Source: Methanohalophilus euhalobius (GTDB taxonomy: Archaea > Halobacteriota > Methanosarcinia > Methanosarcinales > Methanosarcinaceae). Taken from it: 64,000 nucleotides of DNA. This document shows positions 17,270-36,733 of this stretch, piece after piece; position 1 is the first letter of the stretch, and every line of letters starts with the position of its first letter. Position numbers and translations under genes: made by a program. Location of the stretch: positions 1 to 64,000 of the forward strand of contig NZ_OBDR01000001.1 of NCBI RefSeq assembly GCF_900215215.1. The letters are read 5' to 3'. Under the pieces are notes generated by a model that did no database searches, had not been told where the DNA came from, and was given only the letters and a program-made list of their open reading frames with translations.

Positions 17270-17680
17270 TTACGATAAAGAATCAATAATCACTTTTACT
17301 TGTTTTGATGAATAATCCACATTAAATTTTTCTTTTATAATTGCCTGTACATCAGAAGTTTTCCATTTCCTTTTTTCCCGAAGTATATTTTTCAGTTCGT
17401 ACTTCTGTTCTTCACTGAGCTTTGAAGGTCTGCCACCTCCATATCTGGGAAATAATCCGGGATATCCATCCCGATTCCATCTTCTCTGCCATATGTAACC
17501 AACCCTTTTTGTGACGCCTGTTTTTTTTGCAGATTCTTCCACTGAAAAACCTTTGTATCGATATCTTATGAAGTACAACCGAGTCAAAACTTTTGTAAGG
17601 TATTCTATGTATCTTATCCTTTTTTCCAGGCTTTCCATGCTCATCTTTTCTTTAATAGGATACATTTCTTTTTTTGGCAT
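17270..17680 (-). CDS. Orphan transposase-type helix-turn-helix protein
   Basis: The 136-residue protein looks like the N-terminal DNA-binding half (orfA) of an IS630-type transposase: a first HTH (FSVEESAKKTGVTKRVGYIW, about 45-64), RWNRDGYPGLFPRYGGGRP, then a winged-helix segment ending in QVKVII. No DDE catalytic half follows; the 200 bases downstream are A/T-rich and empty. It is therefore either a remnant of an insertion sequence or a domesticated DNA-binding protein. Its gene is divergent from mtmC1, sharing a 154-base promoter region, which makes a regulatory role worth testing. No terminal inverted repeats were seen. Confidence 0.65.
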   Translation of the reverse strand: MPKKEMYPIKEKMSMESLEKRIRYIEYLTKVLTRLYFIRYRYKGFSVEESAKKTGVTKRVGYIWQRRWNRDGYPGLFPRYGGGRPSKLSEEQKYELKNILREKRKWKTSDVQAIIKEKFNVDYSSKQVKVIIDSLS

Positions 17681-17834: not shown

Positions 17835-18488
17835 ATGGGAAAACAGGAAATGTATGATAAACTCAGAGATGCGATTGTCAACCAGGACATCAATGGTACT
17901 GGTCCCCTCGTCCAGGAAGCCCTGGATGCAGGTTTAACTCCTTTCGAGATCATCAATGATGGTCTGTCTGTGGGTATGAAGATCATCGGTGACAAATTCG
18001 AAGCCGCCGAAGTCTACCTTCCCCAGATAATGATGTCTGCCAAGGCCATGAAAGCCGCCATGGAAATTCTTGATCCACTCCTTGCAGAGGATGAGACCTC
18101 AGAATCCGTTGGAACCTGCATCAAGTTCGTCCAGGAAGGCGACATCCACGATATAGGTCACAGGCTTGTTGGAACCATGCTCGGTGCAAACGGTTTCACC
18201 GTTGTCGACATGGGTGTTGACGTACCCAACGACAAGGTCATCGAAGAAGTAGCAGCCCACAAAGGCGAGAAACTTCTGCTTTCCGGCTCTGCCCTTATGA
18301 CCACTTCCATGCTCGGCCAGAAAGACGTCATGCGTCTGCTCGAAGAAGAAGGTCTGCGTGACTCTGTAAAAGTAATGTTCGGTGGAGCTCCGGTCACAGA
18401 TTCCTGGATTAAGGAAATCGGTGCTGACGCAACAGCAGAAAACGCAGCAGAAGCCGCAAACGTGGCTCTTGACTTAATGAAAAAATAA
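17835..18488 (+). CDS. mtmC: Monomethylamine corrinoid protein (copy 1)
   Basis: MtmC, 217 residues, carries the corrinoid that MtmB methylates with monomethylamine and that MtbA then demethylates to make methyl-CoM. It has an N-terminal four-helix cap domain and a C-terminal Rossmann B12 domain with the cobalt-ligand motif DIHDIG (H105). It is followed after 18 bases by mtmB, the typical mtmCB order. The protein is identical to copy 2 at 31477. GGTGAT before the ATG is a strong archaeal ribosome binding site. Identity as MtmC rather than MtbC/MttC rests on the adjoining mtmB. Confidence 0.95.
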   Translation: MGKQEMYDKLRDAIVNQDINGTGPLVQEALDAGLTPFEIINDGLSVGMKIIGDKFEAAEVYLPQIMMSAKAMKAAMEILDPLLAEDETSESVGTCIKFVQEGDIHDIGHRLVGTMLGANGFTVVDMGVDVPNDKVIEEVAAHKGEKLLLSGSALMTTSMLGQKDVMRLLEEEGLRDSVKVMFGGAPVTDSWIKEIGADATAENAAEAANVALDLMKK

Positions 18489-18506: not shown

Positions 18507-19883
18507 ATGACATTTACCAAATCCGTAACTTGCTATGATTTTTATGACCGTGCCCAGACCGGTGAGAAATGCACCCAGGATGACTGGGACTTAATGACCA
18601 TCCCGATGAAGTCAATGGAACTGAAGCAGAAATACAATCTTGACTTTGGTAAGGAATTTGTTCCAACCGACAAGGACCAGATGGAAAGGCTGTTCAAAGC
18701 CGGTTTCGAGATGCTTCTGGACTGTGGTATCTGGTGTACCGACACCCACCGTATCGTCAAATACACAGAAGACGAGATCTGGGATGCAATCAACAATCCG
18801 CACAGGGAATTCCAGCTTGGTAGCGGTCGTGACGCAGTCTACTGCCGCAAGCGTAGTGTAGGTGACAAGAGAAAACCAATCGTGCAGGGTGGTCCAACCG
18901 GTTCCCCAATATCTGAAGATGTCTTCATGCCTGTGCACATGAGTTACGCTCTTGAGAAAGAATGTGACACCATCGTCAACGGTGTAATGACCTCTGCCCG
19001 TGGTAAATCTCCTGTACCCGGCAGTCCTTACGAAGTTCTTGCATCCAAATCCGAAACCCGGCAGATCAGGACCGCCGCTTCCATGGCAGGTCGTCCCGGT
19101 ATGGCAGTTTAGGGCCCTGAGACTTCTCTGTCTGCCCAGGGTAACATCGGTGCAGACTGTGCCGGTGGTATGAACTCCAACGACAGCCACGAAGTCTCCC
19201 AGCTGAACGAACTTAAGATCGATCTTGACGCAATCGCTGTCATTGCCCACTACAAGGGTAACAGCGACATCATCATGGATGAACAGATGCCTATCTTTGG
19301 AGGCTACGCCGGCGGTGTTGAGGAAACAGCCATTGTCGATGTTGCAACCCACCTGAACTCCATGGTAATGAGCAGTGCCAGCTGGCACCTTGATGGTCCT
19401 GTGCACATTCGCTGGGGCTCCACCAATACCCGTGAGACCCTTATGATCGCAGGTTGGACATGTGCCACCATTTCCGAGTTCACAGATCTGCTGTCCGGTA
19501 ACCAGTACTATCCATGTGCAGGTCCATGTACCGAGATGTGCCTGCTTGAGGCTGCTGCCCAGTCCATGACCGATACGGCATCCGGTCGTGAGATCCTGTC
19601 CGGTGTTGCATCTGCAAAGGGGGTCATAACTGACAAGACTACCGGTATGGAAGCACGTATGATGGGAGAAGTCGCACGTGCAACCGCTGGTATGGATATC
19701 GATACTGTCAACCAGATTCTGGATAAACTTGTAGCAAGCTATGAAGGCGATTATGCCAATGCGCCTGCAGGCAAGACGTTCCAGGAATGTTATGATGTTG
19801 CAACCGTTACACCGACCGAGGAATACGTCAAGGTCTATGACGGGGCAAAGAAGAAACTCGAAGACCTGGGTCTGGTGTTCTGA
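18507..19883 (+). CDS. mtmB: Monomethylamine methyltransferase with in-frame pyrrolysine (copy 1)
   Basis: MtmB transfers the methyl group of monomethylamine to MtmC. The frame runs 458 residues, with one amber codon (TAG at 19110-19112) at codon 202 after GRPGMAV and before GPETSLSAQGN. This is exactly the known pyrrolysine site, so the gene is a single CDS, although a simple ORF search splits it in two (18507-19112 and 19170-19883). Decoding needs tRNA-Pyl and PylRS, which are not in this window. The region after the TAG corresponds to the proposed PYLIS element. A hairpin terminator follows directly. Confidence 0.97.
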
Positions 19884-19893
19884 GACCACTGGT

Positions 19894-19925
19894 CAAGATC
19901 GGTATATGATACCGATCTTGTTTTT
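19894..19925 (+). terminator. Hairpin terminator after mtmB1
   Basis: CAAGATCGGTAT and ATACCGATCTTG form a perfect 12-bp stem with a three-base loop, followed by five T residues and a further T-rich stretch. It starts 11 bases after the mtmB1 stop and should separate mtmC1B1 from the regulator genes behind it. Confidence 0.8.
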
Positions 19926-19981
19926 CCCTTTTTTATACAGAAACTATTAATAATATACACTTCCATCAGCTATCCGATATA

Positions 19982-20764
19982 ATGGGTTCTTCGCTAAGTG
20001 ATACGGTTTGGCTTTCTGATAAGAGATTAAATCTCTTGCTTCTTTTAATGGAAGGTCCCAGGAACATCGATCAGATCAAGACATCTCTGAATGTGACTTC
20101 CAGGGGGATGATGCCCCAGATAAAAAAACTGAAAGAGAAGTACCTGATAGTTGAAGAGGGTGATCAATACTGTCTTTCCACGATTGGGGAATTAATTGTT
20201 GAGAAAATGCTTCCTCTCTTGAACACGATAGAGATGGTGAACAATGATAATGCCTATCTGGAAGAACATGACTTAAGTGAACTACCACCAAAATTATTTC
20301 GCAGGCTGTATGAACTTGGAAATTACCTTTTGATTGAACCAGACCTGAACCATACATTTGAAATTCCCCGGGAATTCACTGAAAACCTGCTCAAGTCCAA
20401 AAATATAAAATCGATAATCTCTTTTTACCGACCGGAATATCCTGATATTTATTGTGAATTAATGGAACATGCAGAGAGCATGTCATTGATTATGACACCA
20501 CCGGTTTTTGAAAGAATGAAGCAGTCATGCAATTCTAAAATGACCCGCCTTATAAGGGCTCCGCATATTCATGTGTATATTTTCCCGGAAAATAGCAGAC
20601 CTCCGGGCCTTGACACTTCAGATTGGTTTACTTACATAAGTTTTCTTGATAAAAACGGCCGTTATGATCATAAAGATATAATGAGTTTTGACGAGAGTGC
20701 CCTTAAATGGGGAGATGAGCTTTTCGACTATTATTGCTCTCTTTGTGAAAAGATTGAAATTTGA
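19982..20764 (+). CDS. FilR1/DUF1724-type winged-helix regulator A
   Basis: A 260-residue transcription regulator: an N-terminal ArsR-like winged helix (residues 8-75, with IDQIKTSLNVTSRGMMPQIKKL as the recognition region) and a C-terminal FilR1 (DUF1724) domain (about 100-255). Methanosarcina Msr regulators, which control methanol and methylsulfide methyltransferase genes, are in this family. Its place immediately behind mtmB1 makes it a candidate monomethylamine regulator. The ATG at 19982 has no Shine-Dalgarno sequence. It is paralogous to the next gene, 10 bases downstream. Confidence 0.88.
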   Translation: MGSSLSDTVWLSDKRLNLLLLLMEGPRNIDQIKTSLNVTSRGMMPQIKKLKEKYLIVEEGDQYCLSTIGELIVEKMLPLLNTIEMVNNDNAYLEEHDLSELPPKLFRRLYELGNYLLIEPDLNHTFEIPREFTENLLKSKNIKSIISFYRPEYPDIYCELMEHAESMSLIMTPPVFERMKQSCNSKMTRLIRAPHIHVYIFPENSRPPGLDTSDWFTYISFLDKNGRYDHKDIMSFDESALKWGDELFDYYCSLCEKIEI

Positions 20765-20774
20765 AGGATATTAG

Positions 20775-21596
20775 ATGACTCCACATGAACTTATTGACAC
20801 TATTTTTCTTTCCGACAAGAGAGAAAGATTCCTTTTGCTTTTGCTTGAAGGTCCCACTGATATAAAAAAAAGTAAAGAGCATCTAAATGTAACCTCTTCC
20901 TCCATTCTTCCTCAAATCAAAAAGTTACGGGAAAAAGGCCTTGTCTTCAAAGATGATGAGGGGATCTATGACCTTACAACTACCGGGCGCTTGATAGTTG
21001 AAAACCTGTCACCACTTGCATGTATGCTTGATGTTTTTGATTCAAAGGAGTATTACTGGGACACACGCGATATGGAGGCAATTCCCCGCCATTTGGTGGA
21101 AAATATAGGTCAGCTGGGTGAAGTTGAAGTTATTGAACCCGATCTTGACCACATGTATGATCTGCAACTGCAGTTACATTCAAATATGCTCAAATCCAAT
21201 TATATTAAATGTCTGATTTCTTTTTTCCATCCTGATTATGTTGAATTTTTTAATTCCCTTTCTTCTGCAGGCAAGAATCTGGAATTGATTTTTACGGGTT
21301 CAGTAATGGAAAGAATACTGGCCGAATCGCCTTCAGATATACAAAAACTGATCGAGCAGGAAAATGTTGATATAAGGCTTTTCCGGGAAAACGACTACAT
21401 TCCTTCATTGATTATTGGTGATGATTTTACTTACTTCTGTTTTTTCAATAAATCACACATGTATGACCACAGGGACATAATAAGTTTCACTGAGGGATCA
21501 ATTGAATGGGGGACACAGCTATTTGTTTATTATCGTGACCTTTCTGTTCCTGTTTCCTCTGAGATGCTGTCTGAAATCATAAACGGAAGTGAGTGA
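20775..21596 (+). CDS. FilR1/DUF1724-type winged-helix regulator B
   Basis: A 273-residue paralogue of the upstream regulator with the same layout: winged helix (IKKSKEHLNVTSSSILPQIKKL) and FilR1 domain. Shared landmarks include FLSDKRERFLLLLLEGP at the start and YDHRDIISF near the end (YDHKDIMSF in regulator A). AAGGA upstream supports the ATG at 20775. It overlaps the start of the histidine-kinase gene by eight bases. Tandem FilR1 genes may act together, as reported for Msr pairs in Methanosarcina. Confidence 0.88.
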   Translation: MTPHELIDTIFLSDKRERFLLLLLEGPTDIKKSKEHLNVTSSSILPQIKKLREKGLVFKDDEGIYDLTTTGRLIVENLSPLACMLDVFDSKEYYWDTRDMEAIPRHLVENIGQLGEVEVIEPDLDHMYDLQLQLHSNMLKSNYIKCLISFFHPDYVEFFNSLSSAGKNLELIFTGSVMERILAESPSDIQKLIEQENVDIRLFRENDYIPSLIIGDDFTYFCFFNKSHMYDHRDIISFTEGSIEWGTQLFVYYRDLSVPVSSEMLSEIINGSE

Positions 21597-23766
21597 TTTG
21601 GCATGGAAAGACCTGTCACTGAGGTTTAAACTTGTTCTTTATATTGTGGTCAGTGTTTTTCTCATCCTGTCTATTTCATCTTCAATAGTCATATCAACGG
21701 TTACTTCACAGGAGGAACAGCTCGCTTATGACCAATCTGCTAAAATGGCACAAAGTTATGCCAACCAATTCAATGCAGATATGAAGTCCAATATGGCTAT
21801 TGCAAGGGATATAGCCACCACAATGGGGGCTATTCATGATTCTTCTACAAGAGAAGAAGCCAACGATATAATAAGAAGTATACTTGAGGATAATCCTCAG
21901 CTGATAGGAACTTATAGTGGCTTTGAGCCCGATGCTTTTGATGGAGAGGATGAACGTTACATAAATACCACAGCTCATGATGGGACGGGCAGATTCCTTC
22001 CCTACTGGAACAGGATAGGGGGGGATATAGATGTTGAGCCACTTGTTGATTACAGTACATCAGATTATTACCAGTTACCAAAACGGACAAAGCAGGATGT
22101 TTTAACCGAGCCCTATTTCTATCAGGGTGCTTTGATTGTGAGTTATGTCTCCCCGATAATTGAAAACGATAAATTCATAGGTATAGGCGGGGTGGATGTA
22201 GGTCTGGATTACGTAGATAATACGGTTAGTAGTGTAAAGGCGTTTGAGACCGGTTATCTGTTTATGGTAAGCAATACCGGTATTATTATTTCCCATCCCA
22301 CAAATAAGGATTGGATTGGTTCCAAAAAACTCAGGGACTTTGATAATCCCGTCTTTCATGAGGTTGCCAGTGATATTGAAAAGGGCAAAAGTGGTTATGT
22401 CGATATCGTTGACCCGTCAAACGGGAAGGATGTGATACTCTTTTATGAACCCATTTCGACAGGCAATTATTCAATTCTTCTTTCTGTCCCGAAGGATGAG
22501 ATTTTTGCAGGCGTAGCTTCCCTGCGGTCGGATCTGTTTACGATCTATACATTTTCTATCGTTTTTATGGGACTGATGGCATATCTTATCGCAGCTTCCT
22601 TTAACAATCGGATAAACGGGATTGTGGATGAGTTCAGGACAATTTCGGATTCAGCTCTGGAAGGTGACCTTGACATCAGGGCAAATACGGATGTAGACAT
22701 TGATTTCAAGAAGATTCCGGAAGGACTCAATGAGGTGCTTGATAGCCTACAGGACGCAAACCGGTTGCGTGCAGAAATGGAAGATATAGTAAACCGCAGC
22801 CCGGTCATCGTATTCAAGTGGAAGTCCCAGAAAAACTGGCCGGTAGAATTTGTATCCAGGAACATTTCCCAGTTTGGTTATACCCAGGATGAGTTTACGA
22901 AGGGCAACATTACCTATGCGGATATAGTAGTGCCTGAAGATCTTGGAAATGTTGAGCAGAATCTCCTTGAAGCAATTAATAGAAGTGACAGGGAATTTAA
23001 TTATGAATATCGTATAATTACGAGGGATGGAGAGATCAAGTGGGTTGAAGAGAGAACTTTCATCGGTAACTTCTCTGCAAACCACTCAAATAAATTACAG
23101 GGAATCATTCTGGATATCAATGAACGTAAAAAGGCTGAAGAGGCTTTGAAAAAGATGGGAAAGATTCGAATTAAGGAGATTCATCACAGGATAAAGAATA
23201 ATTTACAGGTCGTCTCCGGTCTTCTTTACCTTGAATCTCTCAATTTCAAATCGGATGAAGTTATGGAGGTCTTCAAGCAAAGTGAGAACAGGGTACGTTC
23301 AATTGCCCTGATCCATGAAAAGTTGTATCATTCAGAAAATCTCACCAGTCTTAATTTATCGGATTATATTGAAGATCTTGTTGAACACCTCATCAATTCC
23401 TATAATATTGATGAGGATATTATCAAAATTCATCTTAATATCGAGAATCTATACTTGGATATGGATTCTGCCGTACCTCTGGGCATTATTATCAATGAAT
23501 TGACCTCAAATGCCCTGCAACATGCTTTTATTAAGGGTGAGAATGGGGAAATCAGCATTGACTTTTTTAAGTCTGCAGGTCAATTAATACTTAATGTTGA
23601 AGATTCAGGGGGTGCTTTCCCGGATGATATCGACTTCAGAAATACCGAATCACTGGGATTACAACTTGTTTCCAATCTCGTAAGCCAGATAGAAGGGGAT
23701 ATTGAACTTGATACTACAGATTACAGGACCTGTTTCAGGATTACTTTTAGGGATAAAGAGGTGTGA
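21589..23766 (+). CDS. Sensor histidine kinase: dCache, PAS, HisKA_2, HATPase
   Basis: A 725-residue membrane sensor. One membrane helix (about 14-36) precedes a large extracellular double-Cache domain (about 45-310), which contains GRFLPYWNR, DYSTSDYY and GGVDVGLDY, positions that form ligand pockets in Cache domains. A second helix (about 320-342), a PAS domain (about 385-510, with ITRDGEIKWVEERT), the HisKA_2 box (IHHRIKNNLQV) and a HATPase with NELTSNALQHAF, EDSGGAFP and SLGLQLV follow. The start is GTG at 21589, overlapping regulator B; a TTG at 21598 is possible. The ligand is unknown; an amine would fit the location. Confidence 0.88.
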   Translation: MSDLAWKDLSLRFKLVLYIVVSVFLILSISSSIVISTVTSQEEQLAYDQSAKMAQSYANQFNADMKSNMAIARDIATTMGAIHDSSTREEANDIIRSILEDNPQLIGTYSGFEPDAFDGEDERYINTTAHDGTGRFLPYWNRIGGDIDVEPLVDYSTSDYYQLPKRTKQDVLTEPYFYQGALIVSYVSPIIENDKFIGIGGVDVGLDYVDNTVSSVKAFETGYLFMVSNTGIIISHPTNKDWIGSKKLRDFDNPVFHEVASDIEKGKSGYVDIVDPSNGKDVILFYEPISTGNYSILLSVPKDEIFAGVASLRSDLFTIYTFSIVFMGLMAYLIAASFNNRINGIVDEFRTISDSALEGDLDIRANTDVDIDFKKIPEGLNEVLDSLQDANRLRAEMEDIVNRSPVIVFKWKSQKNWPVEFVSRNISQFGYTQDEFTKGNITYADIVVPEDLGNVEQNLLEAINRSDREFNYEYRIITRDGEIKWVEERTFIGNFSANHSNKLQGIILDINERKKAEEALKKMGKIRIKEIHHRIKNNLQVVSGLLYLESLNFKSDEVMEVFKQSENRVRSIALIHEKLYHSENLTSLNLSDYIEDLVEHLINSYNIDEDIIKIHLNIENLYLDMDSAVPLGIIINELTSNALQHAFIKGENGEISIDFFKSAGQLILNVEDSGGAFPDDIDFRNTESLGLQLVSNLVSQIEGDIELDTTDYRTCFRITFRDKEV

Positions 23767-24158
23767 TATTGAAAAAATCAAGAATACTGGTTGTAGAAGA
23801 TGAAGCTATAGTGGCAATGGTTATAAAACGCCGTTTGCAAGACCTGGGTTATATTGTTTCAGGCGTTGCTTCTACGGGAAAGGATGCTATCACCAAGGTA
23901 GAAGGAACTTTCCCGGATTTGGTACTTATGGATATCAGGCTTAAAGGGGATATGGATGGTATTGAAGCAACCAAAACAATCAAAGATAGATTTTCTCTGC
24001 CGGTGGTTTATCTTACGGCTCATTCGGATGATGTAACTTTTAAGAAAGCCAAAGAAACAGATCCGGATGGATATATATTGAAACCTTTTACTGAAAAAGA
24101 CCTGAGTACTACCATTGAGATCGCTCTTCACAAATTCCGAAAAGAAAAAGGGAACTGA
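23763..24158 (+). CDS. Single-domain response regulator
   Basis: A 131-residue CheY-like receiver with no output domain. The acidic pair is in VVEDEA, the phosphoacceptor is D57 in LMDIRL, the conserved Thr lies in YLTAHS and Lys in LKPFT. The start is GTG at 23763, overlapping the kinase stop by four bases (GTGA), so it is the kinase's likely partner. Without an output domain it must act through another protein; the two FilR1 regulators in the same transcription unit are obvious candidates, but this is inference. Confidence 0.9.
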   Translation: MILKKSRILVVEDEAIVAMVIKRRLQDLGYIVSGVASTGKDAITKVEGTFPDLVLMDIRLKGDMDGIEATKTIKDRFSLPVVYLTAHSDDVTFKKAKETDPDGYILKPFTEKDLSTTIEIALHKFRKEKGN

Positions 24159-24230
24159 GAAAATTATAATCCCGGGACGAGGCTTTAAGTTTGAGAAAAA
24201 TTTATCTTTGCCCATACATAATAATTAATA

Positions 24231-24428
24231 GATGAACCAATCAATAGTTTATGCCACTGACAGTATATTGAGGGAGATTGTTGAGCAGAGAATAAACTGA
24301 CCCTTGTCATGTTATTCCTACCCACATGTCCTCATTGCAGGGCTATTGAACCTCATTTCAGGGAGTATTCAAAACAGTATGGAGATTCAGTATTGCGGGC
24401 CCATATGTCTATGTGGTCTCATTTATAA
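24231..24428 (+). pseudogene. Decayed thioredoxin-like gene
   Basis: An ATG at 24231 opens MNQSIVYATDSILREIVE, which then needs a frameshift to continue as LTLVMLFLPTCPHCRAIEP. The CPHC active-site motif and the following FREYSKQYG are typical of small archaeal thioredoxins, but the frame ends soon after, at 24428, so the C-terminal half is missing. Frameshift plus truncation indicate a dead gene. Confidence 0.65.
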
Positions 24429-24528
24429 GTCTCAGGGCAAGCAAACCTTTTGCCAGTTCTTCCTGTGACATCTCCCTGGATTGTCTGAGCTGGCTTATCT
24501 TTTCGCCGAGGGGGTTTTTTACAGACAT
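24409..24528 (-). pseudogene. Remnant of an XRE-type HTH regulator
   Basis: The minus strand encodes 39 residues starting MSVKNPLGEKISQLRQSREM, the first half of an XRE helix-turn-helix domain (SQEELAKGL would be the start of the recognition region). The frame then loses similarity and ends at TAG, a stop otherwise avoided in this window. Family members of this type are usually about 180 residues with a C-terminal cupin domain. It overlaps the thioredoxin remnant, so the whole stretch 24.2-24.6 kb is gene debris. Confidence 0.5.
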
Positions 24529-24680
24529 TGATGCATTCTCCTTTTATACATTAATGAAAATGACCGCGGCACATATTGACATATATATTTAAATAGATAT
24601 CTTTGATGTTTATTTATGCCGGAAAGTTTGATAAATGTAGAGATAATTATTATTTAACAAATAATTAGAGGAGTGGTCGA

Positions 24681-27717: not shown

Positions 27718-28452
27718 TCATACCTTGATGAAAAGGCAATGGTTATCTCCTGTTGCATAACACTCTATTTCTTTTATTGATGGCCTCTCACCGGTGATCT
27801 TATGAAGGATACCTTCCAGCATTCCTTCATCAAAAGAGCATATTGGGTGACCAAGAACAGGCATTGACATACATTCAAAACAATCTTTTATTTTAATAGT
27901 AAGAGGCTCTGTATCTTCGATCTGTACTTTTCCCAGTTTATAGCATTTCCAGAAAGAGCGTATCTCTTCAAGGCTGTCAATAAAATCTCCTTGCTCAAAA
28001 GTATTTGCAATTTGTGTGCCGATGTCACTTCCTATGTGTTTGATTATAGGATTATGATCAATGCCCTGGGCTTCAAAGCCTGCTTTGAAAGCACAGAAAA
28101 CGTTCTGGAAAAAATCAGTTTCACTGGAAAATGTGTTTGAGAAATTTTCCAGGCTGTGGTAGTAGTGAGTATCCAGTGGTTTTTGTGAACAAGCTACGTA
28201 TTTTGAGGATAAACTATAATTCTTTTTTCGCCTATCCACCGCGTCTACTGATTCTCTCAATAGGTTTGCTCTTTTAAGGTCGTTAAGATGTACTGATACA
28301 GTGGATTTGGCTTTCCCTGTATTTTGGACAATTTCATCGAAAGAACATGGCCTTTTGTTCAGTAAATCCATTATATGCAATTTAACGGCACCGTTAATTG
28401 CAATGAAACCATTACTGGTAGCAAAAAGGGCCGTGCGGTTCGTTGTGTTCAT
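27718..28452 (-). CDS. ArsR-type HTH protein with V4R domain
   Basis: A 244-residue regulator: an N-terminal winged helix (about 18-80, SFDEIVQNTGKAKSTVSVHL) and a C-terminal V4R (4-vinyl reductase-like) domain (about 140-244), a small-molecule or metal-binding fold. The V4R part carries conserved Cys residues (DCFECMSMPVLGHPICSFDEG) and ends ATGDNHCLF. Such proteins are common in methylotrophic methanogens and may sense corrinoid or related hydrophobic ligands; the ligand is not proven here. Confidence 0.82.
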   Translation of the reverse strand: MNTTNRTALFATSNGFIAINGAVKLHIMDLLNKRPCSFDEIVQNTGKAKSTVSVHLNDLKRANLLRESVDAVDRRKKNYSLSSKYVACSQKPLDTHYYHSLENFSNTFSSETDFFQNVFCAFKAGFEAQGIDHNPIIKHIGSDIGTQIANTFEQGDFIDSLEEIRSFWKCYKLGKVQIEDTEPLTIKIKDCFECMSMPVLGHPICSFDEGMLEGILHKITGERPSIKEIECYATGDNHCLFIKV

Positions 28453-31476: not shown

Positions 31477-32130
31477 ATGGGAAAACAGGAAATGTATGAT
31501 AAACTCAGAGATGCGATTGTCAACCAGGACATCAATGGTACTGGTCCCCTCGTCCAGGAAGCCCTGGATGCAGGTTTAACTCCTTTCGAGATCATCAATG
31601 ATGGTCTGTCTGTGGGTATGAAGATCATCGGTGACAAATTCGAAGCCGCCGAAGTCTACCTTCCCCAGATAATGATGTCTGCCAAGGCCATGAAAGCCGC
31701 CATGGAAATTCTTGATCCACTCCTTGCAGAGGATGAGACCTCAGAATCCGTTGGAACCTGCATCAAGTTCGTCCAGGAAGGCGACATCCACGATATAGGT
31801 CACAGGCTTGTTGGAACCATGCTCGGTGCAAACGGTTTCACCGTTGTCGACATGGGTGTTGACGTACCCAACGACAAGGTCATCGAAGAAGTAGCAGCCC
31901 ACAAAGGCGAGAAACTTCTGCTTTCCGGCTCTGCCCTTATGACCACTTCCATGCTCGGCCAGAAAGACGTCATGCGTCTGCTCGAAGAAGAAGGTCTGCG
32001 TGACTCTGTAAAAGTAATGTTCGGTGGAGCTCCGGTCACAGATTCCTGGATTAAGGAAATCGGTGCTGACGCAACAGCAGAAAACGCAGCAGAAGCCGCA
32101 AACGTGGCTCTTGACTTAATGAAAAAATAA
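31477..32130 (+). CDS. mtmC: Monomethylamine corrinoid protein (copy 2)
   Basis: This protein (217 residues) is identical in sequence to copy 1, including the DIHDIG motif with H105. By eye the DNA is also identical across the whole gene. The frame is open 49 codons further upstream (to 31330), but the ATG at 31477 has the same GGTGAT site as copy 1 and starts at the same residue. It is followed after 18 bases by mtmB2. Confidence 0.95.
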   Translation: MGKQEMYDKLRDAIVNQDINGTGPLVQEALDAGLTPFEIINDGLSVGMKIIGDKFEAAEVYLPQIMMSAKAMKAAMEILDPLLAEDETSESVGTCIKFVQEGDIHDIGHRLVGTMLGANGFTVVDMGVDVPNDKVIEEVAAHKGEKLLLSGSALMTTSMLGQKDVMRLLEEEGLRDSVKVMFGGAPVTDSWIKEIGADATAENAAEAANVALDLMKK

Positions 32131-32148
32131 AACAGGGAGGATTAATTT

Positions 32149-33525
32149 ATGACATTTACCAAATCCGTAACTTGCTATGATTTTTATGACCGTGCCCAGA
32201 CCGGTGAGAAATGCACCCAGGATGACTGGGACTTAATGACCATCCCGATGAAGTCAATGGAACTGAAGCAGAAATACAATCTTGACTTTGGTAAGGAATT
32301 TGTTCCAACCGACAAGGACCAGATGGAAAGGCTGTTCAAAGCCGGTTTCGAGATGCTTCTGGACTGTGGTATCTGGTGTACCGACACCCACCGTATCGTC
32401 AAATACACAGAAGACGAGATCTGGGATGCAATCAACAATCCGCACAGGGAATTCCAGCTTGGTAGCGGTCGTGACGCAGTCTACTGCCGCAAGCGTAGTG
32501 TAGGTGACAAGAGAAAACCAATCGTGCAGGGTGGTCCAACCGGTTCCCCAATATCTGAAGATGTCTTCATGCCTGTGCACATGAGTTACGCTCTTGAGAA
32601 AGAATGTGACACCATCGTCAACGGTGTAATGACCTCTGCCCGTGGTAAATCTCCTGTACCCGGCAGTCCTTACGAAGTTCTTGCATCCAAATCCGAAACC
32701 CGGCAGATCAGGACCGCCGCTTCCATGGCAGGTCGTCCCGGTATGGCAGTTTAGGGCCCTGAGACTTCTCTGTCTGCCCAGGGTAACATCGGTGCAGACT
32801 GTGCCGGTGGTATGAACTCCAACGACAGCCACGAAGTCTCCCAGCTGAACGAACTTAAGATCGATCTTGACGCAATCGCTGTCATTGCCCACTACAAGGG
32901 TAACAGTGACATCATCATGGATGAACAGATGCCAATTTTCGGAGGCTACGCCGGTGGTATCGAGGAAACAGCCATTGTCAACGTTGCCACGCATATTAAT
33001 TCCATGGTAATGAGCAGTGCCAGCTGGCACCTTGATGGTCCTGTGCACATTCGCTGGGGCTCCACCAATACCCGTGAGACCCTTATGATCGCAGGTTGGA
33101 CATGTGCCACCATTTCCGAGTTCACAGATCTGCTGTCCGGTAACCAGTACTATCCATGTGCAGGTCCATGTACCGAGATGTGCCTGCTTGAGGCTGCTGC
33201 CCAGTCCATGACCGATACTGCATCCGGTCGTGAGATCCTGTCCGGTGTTGCATCTGCAAAGGGTGTTATCACTGACAAGACTACCGGTATGGAAGCACGT
33301 ATGATGGGAGAAGTCGCACGTGCAACCGCGGGTATGGATATCGATACTGTCAACCAGATTCTGGATAAACTTGTAGCAAGCTATGAAGGCGATTATGCCA
33401 ACGCACCTGCAGGCAAGACGTTCCAGGAATGCTATGATGTTGCAACCGTTACACCGACCGAGGAATACGTCAAGGTCTATGACGGGGCAAAGAAAAAACT
33501 CGAAGACCTGGGTCTGGTGTTCTGA
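32149..33525 (+). CDS. mtmB: Monomethylamine methyltransferase with in-frame pyrrolysine (copy 2)
   Basis: A second 458-residue MtmB, with the amber codon at 32752-32754 (codon 202). It differs from copy 1 by only a few residues, for example GGIEETAIVNVATHINSM where copy 1 has GGVEETAIVDVATHLNSM. The DNA matches copy 1 exactly until just after the amber region; changes cluster in the last 620 bases. A hairpin terminator follows, then the permease genes. Confidence 0.97.
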
Positions 33526-33706: not shown

Positions 33707-35092
33707 ATGACCGATGAAATTACTAATGATCCCTTGGAAGAATCTACCAGTCTTGTGAAGACACTAAGACCATACCATGTATGGGCACTTGGTGTCGGGA
33801 TTGTGCTGGTGGGTGAATATATGGGATGGAACTTTACGGTTGCCAAAGGTGGTATATTGGGTTCCCTTTTGGCATTACTTGTTGCCGGTACAATGTATCT
33901 GATGGTTTCTCTTTGTGCAAGTGAGCTAGGTGCGTCTACCAAACTTGCGGGAGGACCTTATGACTGGGCAAGATTATTTGTAGGTCCCGGTGCAGCGGCA
34001 CTGGTGGGACTTGCTGTTTATATGGAATACATCGCTCTGGAAGCCGCAGATTCCATTGTTGTGGCATCAATTGCAGAATCAATATTGCCGGAGATACAAG
34101 TATTCCCGATCACGCTTTTAGTGATCACATTCTTGACATTTATGAATTACAGGGGGGTTGTGGCAGCGCTCAACCTTAATTTCGCATTGAGTTTTACTGC
34201 ATTCATTGCAATTCTTGTGTTCTTTGCCATGAGTATTACAGGTGTTGGAGGAGTCTGGAATCCGGGTAACTTAATATCCGGTGCTATTCCAAATGGCTTG
34301 ATAGGAATTTTCGCTGCATTGCAATTTGGTCCCTGGTTCTATCTGGGTATAGAAGGAGCGGCTATGAGTGCTGAAGAATGTAAACATCCTTCCAGGGCAG
34401 TGCCTCTGGGTCAACAGGCAGGGATGATCACTCTTTTGCTTGCAGCCGGTATGACACTGTATGTATGTTCTGGCCTTATACCCACAGACCAGCTTGGTGT
34501 ATCTGTCTATCCACTTTATGAGGCAGCCACTAACAGCGGTGTACAATTGCTCGTAGTACTTCTTGCAATAGGTACTCTCTTTACATGTCTTGCAAGTGCC
34601 AACGGTACTATCTGTGACTCATCCAGATCATGGTATGCCCTATCAAGGGACCAATTCCTGACTCCATGGTTCTCTGCTGTACATCCAAAATATAACACGC
34701 CTTACAGGGCTGTTATTTTCACTATGCCAATTGCGATCGCATTTGCATTCAGTGGTTTCCTGGATCAGGTTATCACATTCTCGATAGTATCCGGACTAGT
34801 GTGCTATGTGATGATTCCATTCTCCCTGATTCGTTTCAGAAAGATGTTCCCACAACACAACAACAAGGTGCGTCCATTCGTTGGCCCGTTGCAACCCTGG
34901 CTTGCATACTTCACAATATTCCTGGCACTTGTGATCATGTCAACCCTGCAGTGGGGATACAGGTATAATCTGATATTTGCCCTGCTGTTCTATGCGATTG
35001 CATATTTCTATTTCAACCGGAGATATCGGAGTTTAGAAGTTAGCCATGACTGGGGCGAAGAGATGGGTTGGCCCGAGCCTGTGAGGACATAA
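33707..35092 (+). CDS. APC-family amine permease (probable methylamine permease)
   Basis: A 461-residue transporter with about twelve membrane segments, closest in character to ethanolamine/amino-acid permeases of the APC superfamily: LRPYHVWALGVGIVLVGEYMGWN at the first helix, KLAGGPYDWAR after helix 2, and GIEGAAMSAEECKHPSR near the middle. Its place behind mtmC2B2 suggests monomethylamine import, as proposed for MtmP of Methanosarcina. GGGGGAA lies upstream of the ATG. Confidence 0.85.
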   Translation: MTDEITNDPLEESTSLVKTLRPYHVWALGVGIVLVGEYMGWNFTVAKGGILGSLLALLVAGTMYLMVSLCASELGASTKLAGGPYDWARLFVGPGAAALVGLAVYMEYIALEAADSIVVASIAESILPEIQVFPITLLVITFLTFMNYRGVVAALNLNFALSFTAFIAILVFFAMSITGVGGVWNPGNLISGAIPNGLIGIFAALQFGPWFYLGIEGAAMSAEECKHPSRAVPLGQQAGMITLLLAAGMTLYVCSGLIPTDQLGVSVYPLYEAATNSGVQLLVVLLAIGTLFTCLASANGTICDSSRSWYALSRDQFLTPWFSAVHPKYNTPYRAVIFTMPIAIAFAFSGFLDQVITFSIVSGLVCYVMIPFSLIRFRKMFPQHNNKVRPFVGPLQPWLAYFTIFLALVIMSTLQWGYRYNLIFALLFYAIAYFYFNRRYRSLEVSHDWGEEMGWPEPVRT

Positions 35093-36310: not shown

Positions 36311-36733
36311 ATGAAATCCGGGGGCATATTGGTAGTTGAGGATGAAATGATCGTTGCAATGGGCATAAAACTCAAACTGGAAGAGATGGGCTATACTGTT
36401 TGTGGAATTGTGGCAGATGGGCAAACTGCTATAAATATGGCATCACATTTGAAACCTGATTTGATTTTGATGGATATTGTTCTCAAAGGCAATATAGACG
36501 GAATTGAAGCTGCCAAAGTAATCAAACAGAAATTGGCTCCTCATTTTATTTTCCTTACCGGTATCTCTGACAAAGCCATTTTGCAGCGTGTCCATGAACT
36601 AAAACCAGTGGGAACTATAATGAAACCCTTTGATGACTCACATCTGCGTAATATGATAGAAGCGGCTTTGTCTGAGAATCAATCCTCTTCTGAGGCTTTG
36701 GATTTTTCTGATTCCTGTGTTTTGTCAGGATGA
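36311..36733 (+). CDS. Single-domain response regulator (orphan)
   Basis: A 140-residue CheY-like receiver: VVEDEM for the acidic pair, D55 in LMDIVL as phosphoacceptor, LTG and MKPF for the other conserved residues. A short Ser-rich tail follows. The reading frame is open far upstream, but the ATG at 36311 begins the receiver fold, with GAGGA upstream. It resembles the receiver at 23763 but no kinase is adjacent, so its partner is unknown. Confidence 0.88.
   Translation: MKSGGILVVEDEMIVAMGIKLKLEEMGYTVCGIVADGQTAINMASHLKPDLILMDIVLKGNIDGIEAAKVIKQKLAPHFIFLTGISDKAILQRVHELKPVGTIMKPFDDSHLRNMIEAALSENQSSSEALDFSDSCVLSG

Follow-up and report, generated by a model that had tools for sequence, protein, structure and literature searches.

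The window, i.e., the complete 64,000-nucleotide stretch of Methanohalophilus euhalobius DNA analysed here (contig NZ_OBDR01000001.1), carries at positions 19982-24158 four tightly packed genes on the forward strand, encoding two FilR1 regulators, a membrane histidine kinase, and a response regulator that consists of a receiver (REC) domain only (Table 1). The FilR1-A and FilR1-B genes are 10 nt apart, FilR1-B overlaps the kinase gene by 8 nt, and the kinase gene overlaps the REC gene by 4 nt. Pfam recognised FilR1_middle (PF08350) far above its cut-off in both FilR1-A (E 3e-35) and FilR1-B (E 4e-30), dCache_1 (PF02743, E 3e-25), PAS_3, HisKA_2, and HATPase_c in the kinase, and Response_reg as the sole domain of the REC protein. 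The Cache domain of the kinase is flanked by two hydrophobic segments, at about residues 8-39 and 316-337, and the H-box of the kinase (EIHHRIKNN, residues 530-538) is intact. Gene packing and domain content agree with the original prediction of four overlapping or nearly touching genes that combine Msr-type regulators with a membrane kinase and a receiver without output domain. The closest relatives are found in Methanohalophilus, where FilR1-A is 95-96% identical.

Table 1. Features of the window at and around the four-gene module
Feature	Position	Strand	Remarks
Stand-alone HTH	17270-17680	-	Like the N-terminal part of IS630 transposases
mtmC	17835-18488	+	Monomethylamine corrinoid protein; B12-binding_2, B12-binding; TIGR02370; likely target operon
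mtmB	18507-19883	+	Monomethylamine methyltransferase; MtmB E 4e-228 with TAG read through
Terminator-like hairpin and U-run	19895-19935	+	In the mtmB/FilR1-A gap; 25-nt hairpin, z -4.9
Promoter-like element AAACTATTAATA	19941-19952	+	About 30-41 nt before the FilR1-A start; strictly conserved
FilR1-A	19982-20764	+	260 aa; winged helix and FilR1_middle (PLD-like fold); receiver domain absent
FilR1-B	20775-21596	+	273 aa; second tandem FilR1, faster-evolving
Membrane histidine kinase	21589-23766	+	725 aa; TM1, dCache_1 with amine motif, TM2, PAS_3, HisKA_2 (H533), HATPase_c
REC-only response regulator	23763-24158	+	131 aa; D13, D57, T85, K107 intact
Region lacking genes of relatives	24159-24680		Thioredoxin-like remnant LPTCPHCRAIEPHF
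MsvR redox regulator	27718-28452	-	
Second mtmC-mtmB copy	31477-33525	+	DNA 98.8% identical; unrelated upstream region
Amino-acid-permease-family transporter	33707-35092	+	After second mtmCB; candidate methylamine permease
Second REC-only protein	36311-36733	+	Similar RECs downstream of second mtmCB/permease in Methanococcoides and G032

The module had been predicted to lie behind mtmB, and mtmC and mtmB indeed lie directly upstream, the latter with an in-frame TAG (pyrrolysine) at 19110-19112 and a PYLIS_1 element at 19110, although a hairpin and a promoter-like element intervene. The 98 nt between mtmB and FilR1-A hold the hairpin, its U-run, and then AAACTATTAATA; in an alignment of seven loci from the same genus both elements part mtmB from FilR1-A in every locus. 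The hairpin also folds in loci L037 and L041, and a hairpin of different sequence occupies the same place in locus L042 and genome G032. Because a terminator hairpin and a separate promoter-like element follow mtmB, the four genes probably form a separate operon rather than extending mtmCB; on the same grounds, mtmB was deemed unlikely to be cotranscribed with them.

The two mtmC-mtmB copies of the window are 98.8% identical over 2049 nt, such that near-identical enzymes are placed behind two different promoters; the longest runs common to the two mtmC upstream regions are at most 11 nt. A search for an operator common to the mtmC and FilR1 promoters found none. The sole repeat detected, TGTGAAT in two copies, is limited to Methanolobus and close kin: upstream of Methanolobus FilR1-A (L102, L115, L116, L119, L120, L123) it forms a direct repeat with a spacing of about 19 nt, just before the TATA-like element, and is a candidate operator. 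Genes similar to the permease gene behind the second mtmCB adjoin mtmCB and mtbCB in relatives. Divergent to mtmC lies the IS630-like HTH gene, which is kept at this position in Methanohalophilus and Methanococcoides (62-98% identity) and is perhaps a domesticated transposase-derived regulator. An msvR gene is located a few kb downstream of the module. Directly behind the module, relatives hold approximately 2.6-3 kb on the opposite strand (AMP-ligase, thioesterase-like protein, cupin regulator) that is missing from the window genome; since a thioredoxin-like remnant is still present, these genes were probably lost by a deletion adjoining the module.

Conservation of the module was assessed by a kinase search in 111 genomes of the host's family followed by gene-order mapping. 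The mtmC-mtmB-FilR1-FilR1-HK-REC order is present in close relatives, and the FilR1-FilR1-HK-RR order for which a genome search had been proposed recurs across genera, over most of the family, and is not specific to this strain; gene order is kept across Methanohalophilus, Methanococcoides, Methanolobus, Methanosalsum, Methanomethylovorans, and Methanosarcina. An independent search by FilR1 similarity alone retrieved 78 loci, 48 of which have a dCache kinase directly downstream of FilR1, usually with REC next, which argues that the order of FilR1 and kinase is not due to chance. Among the loci with a high FilR1 score, 46/47 are kinase-linked and REC is visible in 40/47, the remainder being mostly contig ends or broken kinase frames. 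Outside the family, HK- or REC-like genes were found within approximately 1.5 kb of none of 56 FilR1 loci, in a search that also missed divergent fused receivers.

The methyltransferase beside the module goes with the number of FilR1 genes. Among modules with a methyltransferase detected within 7 kb, the tandem-FilR1 ones have mtmB in 12/12 cases and the single-FilR1 ones have mtbB in 13 and mttB in 1, these being counts over related genomes and not independent events. The window genome carries both versions; the second, on contig C11 (L057), is cut at the contig end, at a position where relatives have mtbC-mtbB. In addition, a pair of FilR1 and dCache kinase genes at L090:210-3960 is oriented divergently to mttB (trimethylamine); it lies on a contig that ends before any REC position and suggests a third substrate version. 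The arrangement could in principle be a neutral leftover of shared ancestry without a regulatory tie to mtmCB, as gene order persists within one family and the module is set apart from mtmCB by terminator- and promoter-like elements. This explanation is considered very improbable: the paralogous module tracks mtbCB, and the link to mtmCB survives rearrangement, since the module follows mtmCB in Methanohalophilus, is divergent from it in Methanolobus, Methanosalsum, and others, and sits between two mtmCB copies in Methanococcoides-like genomes.

The window Cache domain is approximately 60% identical to the sensors of two Methanosarcina mazei kinases of known structure, 3LIB (E 5e-113) and 3LI8. 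According to PMC10104139, 3LIB is 'R1' of M. mazei (WP_011034866; dCache_1AM), is encoded near a dimethylamine methyltransferase, and binds dimethylamine, trimethylamine, and methylamine with KD values of 0.53, 10, and 35 uM, respectively; the same source already proposed that the amine-sensing kinase regulates the adjacent dimethylamine methyltransferase. The published amine-motif residues of PctD/PacA were mapped via the 7psg alignment, the assignment being made here from that alignment and the residue numbers. The PctD positions R103, D133, W155, F188, Y189, Y206, M215, S217, and D235, plus the A204 position, correspond to R88, D118, Y139, Y160, Y161, Y178, I183, S185, and D203, plus Y176, of the window kinase. 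3LIB agrees with the window at all ten, with M for I183, and the ten residues are kept in nearly all FilR1-linked kinases. On the basis of this agreement and the identity to 3LIB, the proposal that the window Cache domain senses an amine is well supported by sequence comparison, as had been predicted. In a tree of Cache domains, 3LIB groups with kinases from Methanosarcina mtb clusters whose genes lie shortly upstream of a FilR1-HK-REC unit, and 3LI8 falls among the FilR1-HK-REC module kinases themselves. The known amine sensor and the module are therefore found in the same type of locus. Not every kinase of the same family with the amine motif is accompanied by a FilR1 gene.

The position that follows the cation-pi residue Y178, residue 179, is Q in 19/20 sensors of the tandem/mtm version, whereas every single/mtb sensor and both M. 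mazei domains have E or D there, again counted over related genomes. A role of Q179/E179 as a proven specificity switch was rejected, because the tree provides only 1-2 independent contrasts and the tandem module L042 has E; as the difference was possibly inherited once, residue 179 is taken as a prediction of specificity and not as proof.

In a tree of 138 FilR1 sequences, the 52 kinase-linked rows form one clade with 0 unlinked sequences inside (fork support 80; further supports of 97 for A+S and 96 for S). First and second tandem copies form separate groups, the second evolving faster and its unity being weakly supported. Unlinked FilR1/Msr copies are numerous in the family, a single genome holding as many as 19 FilR1 genes. 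A further FilR1 gene in the window genome (L060:9642-10430; G000:C18:315672-316055) contains an in-frame TAG and is either a pseudogene or subject to pyrrolysine readthrough. The predicted structure of FilR1-A (pLDDT 91.9) had TrmBL2 as its best Foldseek match (E 2e-10), and its residues 114-260 superimposed on the sugar-binding domain of TrmB (2f5t) with Z 11.9 and an rmsd of 2.7 over 129 residues. In view of this PLD-like fold, which includes the TrmB sugar-binding domain, small ligands, proteins, or both are conceivable binding partners of FilR1.

These features allow a reading in which FilR1-A and FilR1-B are one-component, metabolite-binding regulators, while the kinase and REC report the outside amine elsewhere, for example to a hybrid-kinase or Hpt relay, a transporter, or chemotaxis, the two inputs being co-expressed and uncoupled. 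The TrmBL2- and TrmB-like fold with its near-invariant Y228-D229-H230 and W243 is in line with such an arrangement, as are the many FilR1s of the family without a dCache kinase beside them and the preliminary work on MA4377/MA4376, a kinase and REC near MsrC/MsrX in Methanosarcina acetivorans, which excluded the Msr regulators as partners of MA4376 (PMC11784639). Nevertheless, uncoupled inputs are regarded as unlikely, since the kinase-linked FilR1s are a clade of their own that keeps overlapping or near-touching HK-REC neighbours across many genera, and since Methanothrix fuses the receiver to FilR1. The latter, found as a FilR1 with a C-terminal receiver in five Methanothrix-like genomes (e.g., L184) and in FilR1 of Methanothrix harundinacea (PMC3991700), is the best support for a link between receiver and FilR1, by analogy with which the receiver of the module may act on FilR1. 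The fused proteins are distant (21-28% identity), and an AlphaFold model of the Methanothrix FilR1-REC fusion reached a pLDDT of 43, with five aligned sequences.

The receiver itself has an intact active site in the module copies. In M. acetivorans, REC-only proteins have been suggested to act as hubs or sinks (PMC11784639), and many modules, including many of those in Methanosarcina, have another REC-only gene nearby. The REC-only protein might accordingly serve as a phosphate sink or as a hub common to other kinases, with an indirect effect on FilR1. As the kinase gene of each module is directly followed by a REC gene of its own that encodes a complete active site, there seems to be little chance that this is its main role.

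The preferred interpretation, to which we assign a probability of roughly 0.58, is that the module is a FilI/FilR-like two-component system in split form, which adjusts the use of monomethylamine, with the receiver acting on FilR1 in trans. The outward dCache_1AM domain of the kinase would bind methylamine, which would alter phosphorylation of H533 in HisKA_2, and the phosphoryl group would then be passed to D57 of the co-encoded REC. Phosphorylated REC would bind FilR1-A and also, as a partner in homo- or heterodimers, FilR1-B, thereby taking in trans the role of the fused C-terminal receiver of Methanothrix FilR1, upon which FilR1 would alter how mtmCB and its own operon are transcribed. The single-FilR1 paralogue with its own sensor would do likewise for dimethylamine at mtbCB. 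For the window locus we infer the sensor ligand, the phosphotransfer, the REC-FilR1 contact, the target promoters, and the sign of regulation; the exclusion of Msr for MA4376, the TrmB-like effector domain, the distance of the Methanothrix fusion, and the amine-motif kinases without FilR1 were counted against this interpretation. A more far-reaching version, which is offered tentatively, holds that a design common to the family dedicates a separate external sensor to every methylated amine, with the tandem-FilR1 module serving monomethylamine and the single-FilR1 module dimethylamine, that the free receiver switches the receiver-less, TrmB-like one-component regulator FilR1 in trans, and that residue 179, next to the pocket and Q in monomethylamine-linked and E/D in dimethylamine-linked sensors, helps to set specificity.

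In saline sediments, methylamines are a major source of methane. The module bears on the choice of methanogens among methylated amines and on the targets of the many archaeal REC-only proteins. Each module brings together a sensor with a plausible ligand, its receiver, and candidates for both the output protein and the target operon, and the step from a REC-only protein to archaeal transcription is therefore directly testable here.

The original prediction held that a two-component partner falls outside the known Msr/FilR1 picture. This does not stand, as FilI/FilR1/FilR2, MsmS, RdmS, and M. mazei R1 are earlier cases. FilR1 was named in the kinase/two-receiver system FilI/FilR1/FilR2 of Methanosaeta (Methanothrix) harundinacea, in which FilI transfers the phosphoryl group to FilR1 and FilR2, and phosphorylated FilR1 binds DNA better (PMC3991700). 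Both systems encode a membrane kinase, a regulator with winged helix-turn-helix (wHTH) and FilR1_middle domains, and a REC-only protein together, with control of methanogenesis genes in M. harundinacea. There, however, FilR1 has its own C-terminal REC and is divergently transcribed, the sensor is of the CHASE4 type, and acetoclastic genes are the targets, whereas in the window two FilR1 genes whose products lack Response_reg probably share an operon with the gene of a dCache_1AM/HisKA_2 kinase, beside genes for methylamine use, and the receiver is a separate gene. Since the FilR1-fused receiver is a defining feature of FilI/FilR, the module is better described as working like that system than as being it.

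The Msr regulators with MsmS and RdmS, kinases linked to Msr-controlled genes in M. acetivorans (PMC6944256), likewise combine wHTH-DUF1724/FilR1_middle regulators of methyltransferase genes with sensor kinases that are connected to those genes (PMC6944256, PMC11784639, PMC11619418). The window regulators conform to this domain layout, their suggested control of methyltransferases resting on adjacency to mtmCB/mtbCB. MsmS and RdmS are redox kinases without H-box (the MA_type 2 kinase class) and their regulators act without a receiver, whereas the window kinase has HisKA_2 with its H-box and a co-encoded REC. MA4377/MA4376 resemble the module in placing a kinase and a REC-only protein near Msr genes, with phosphotransfer to REC domains shown (PMC11784639), but MA4377 is a CHASE4 hybrid kinase with two fused RECs. 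TrmB/TrmBL2 share the winged helix and PLD-like domain of the predicted FilR1-A fold, at approximately 9-14% identity in structural alignments, but have no two-component partner.

The R1 kinase of M. mazei is a close homologue in its sensor, with the same amine motif and a methyltransferase gene nearby, but in the Methanosarcina relatives examined R1-type kinases lack an adjacent FilR1, a FilR1-HK-REC unit being located a few kb further downstream. The main text of PMC10104139 contains neither a tandem, monomethylamine-linked version nor a FilR1/REC partnership. The recurrent split module, tandem at mtmCB and single at mtbCB and with a FilR1 clade of its own, is new as far as the literature examined shows, and appears to be a widespread split two-component system of the FilI/FilR type with a methylamine sensor, for which we infer the sensor ligand and phosphotransfer from sequence.
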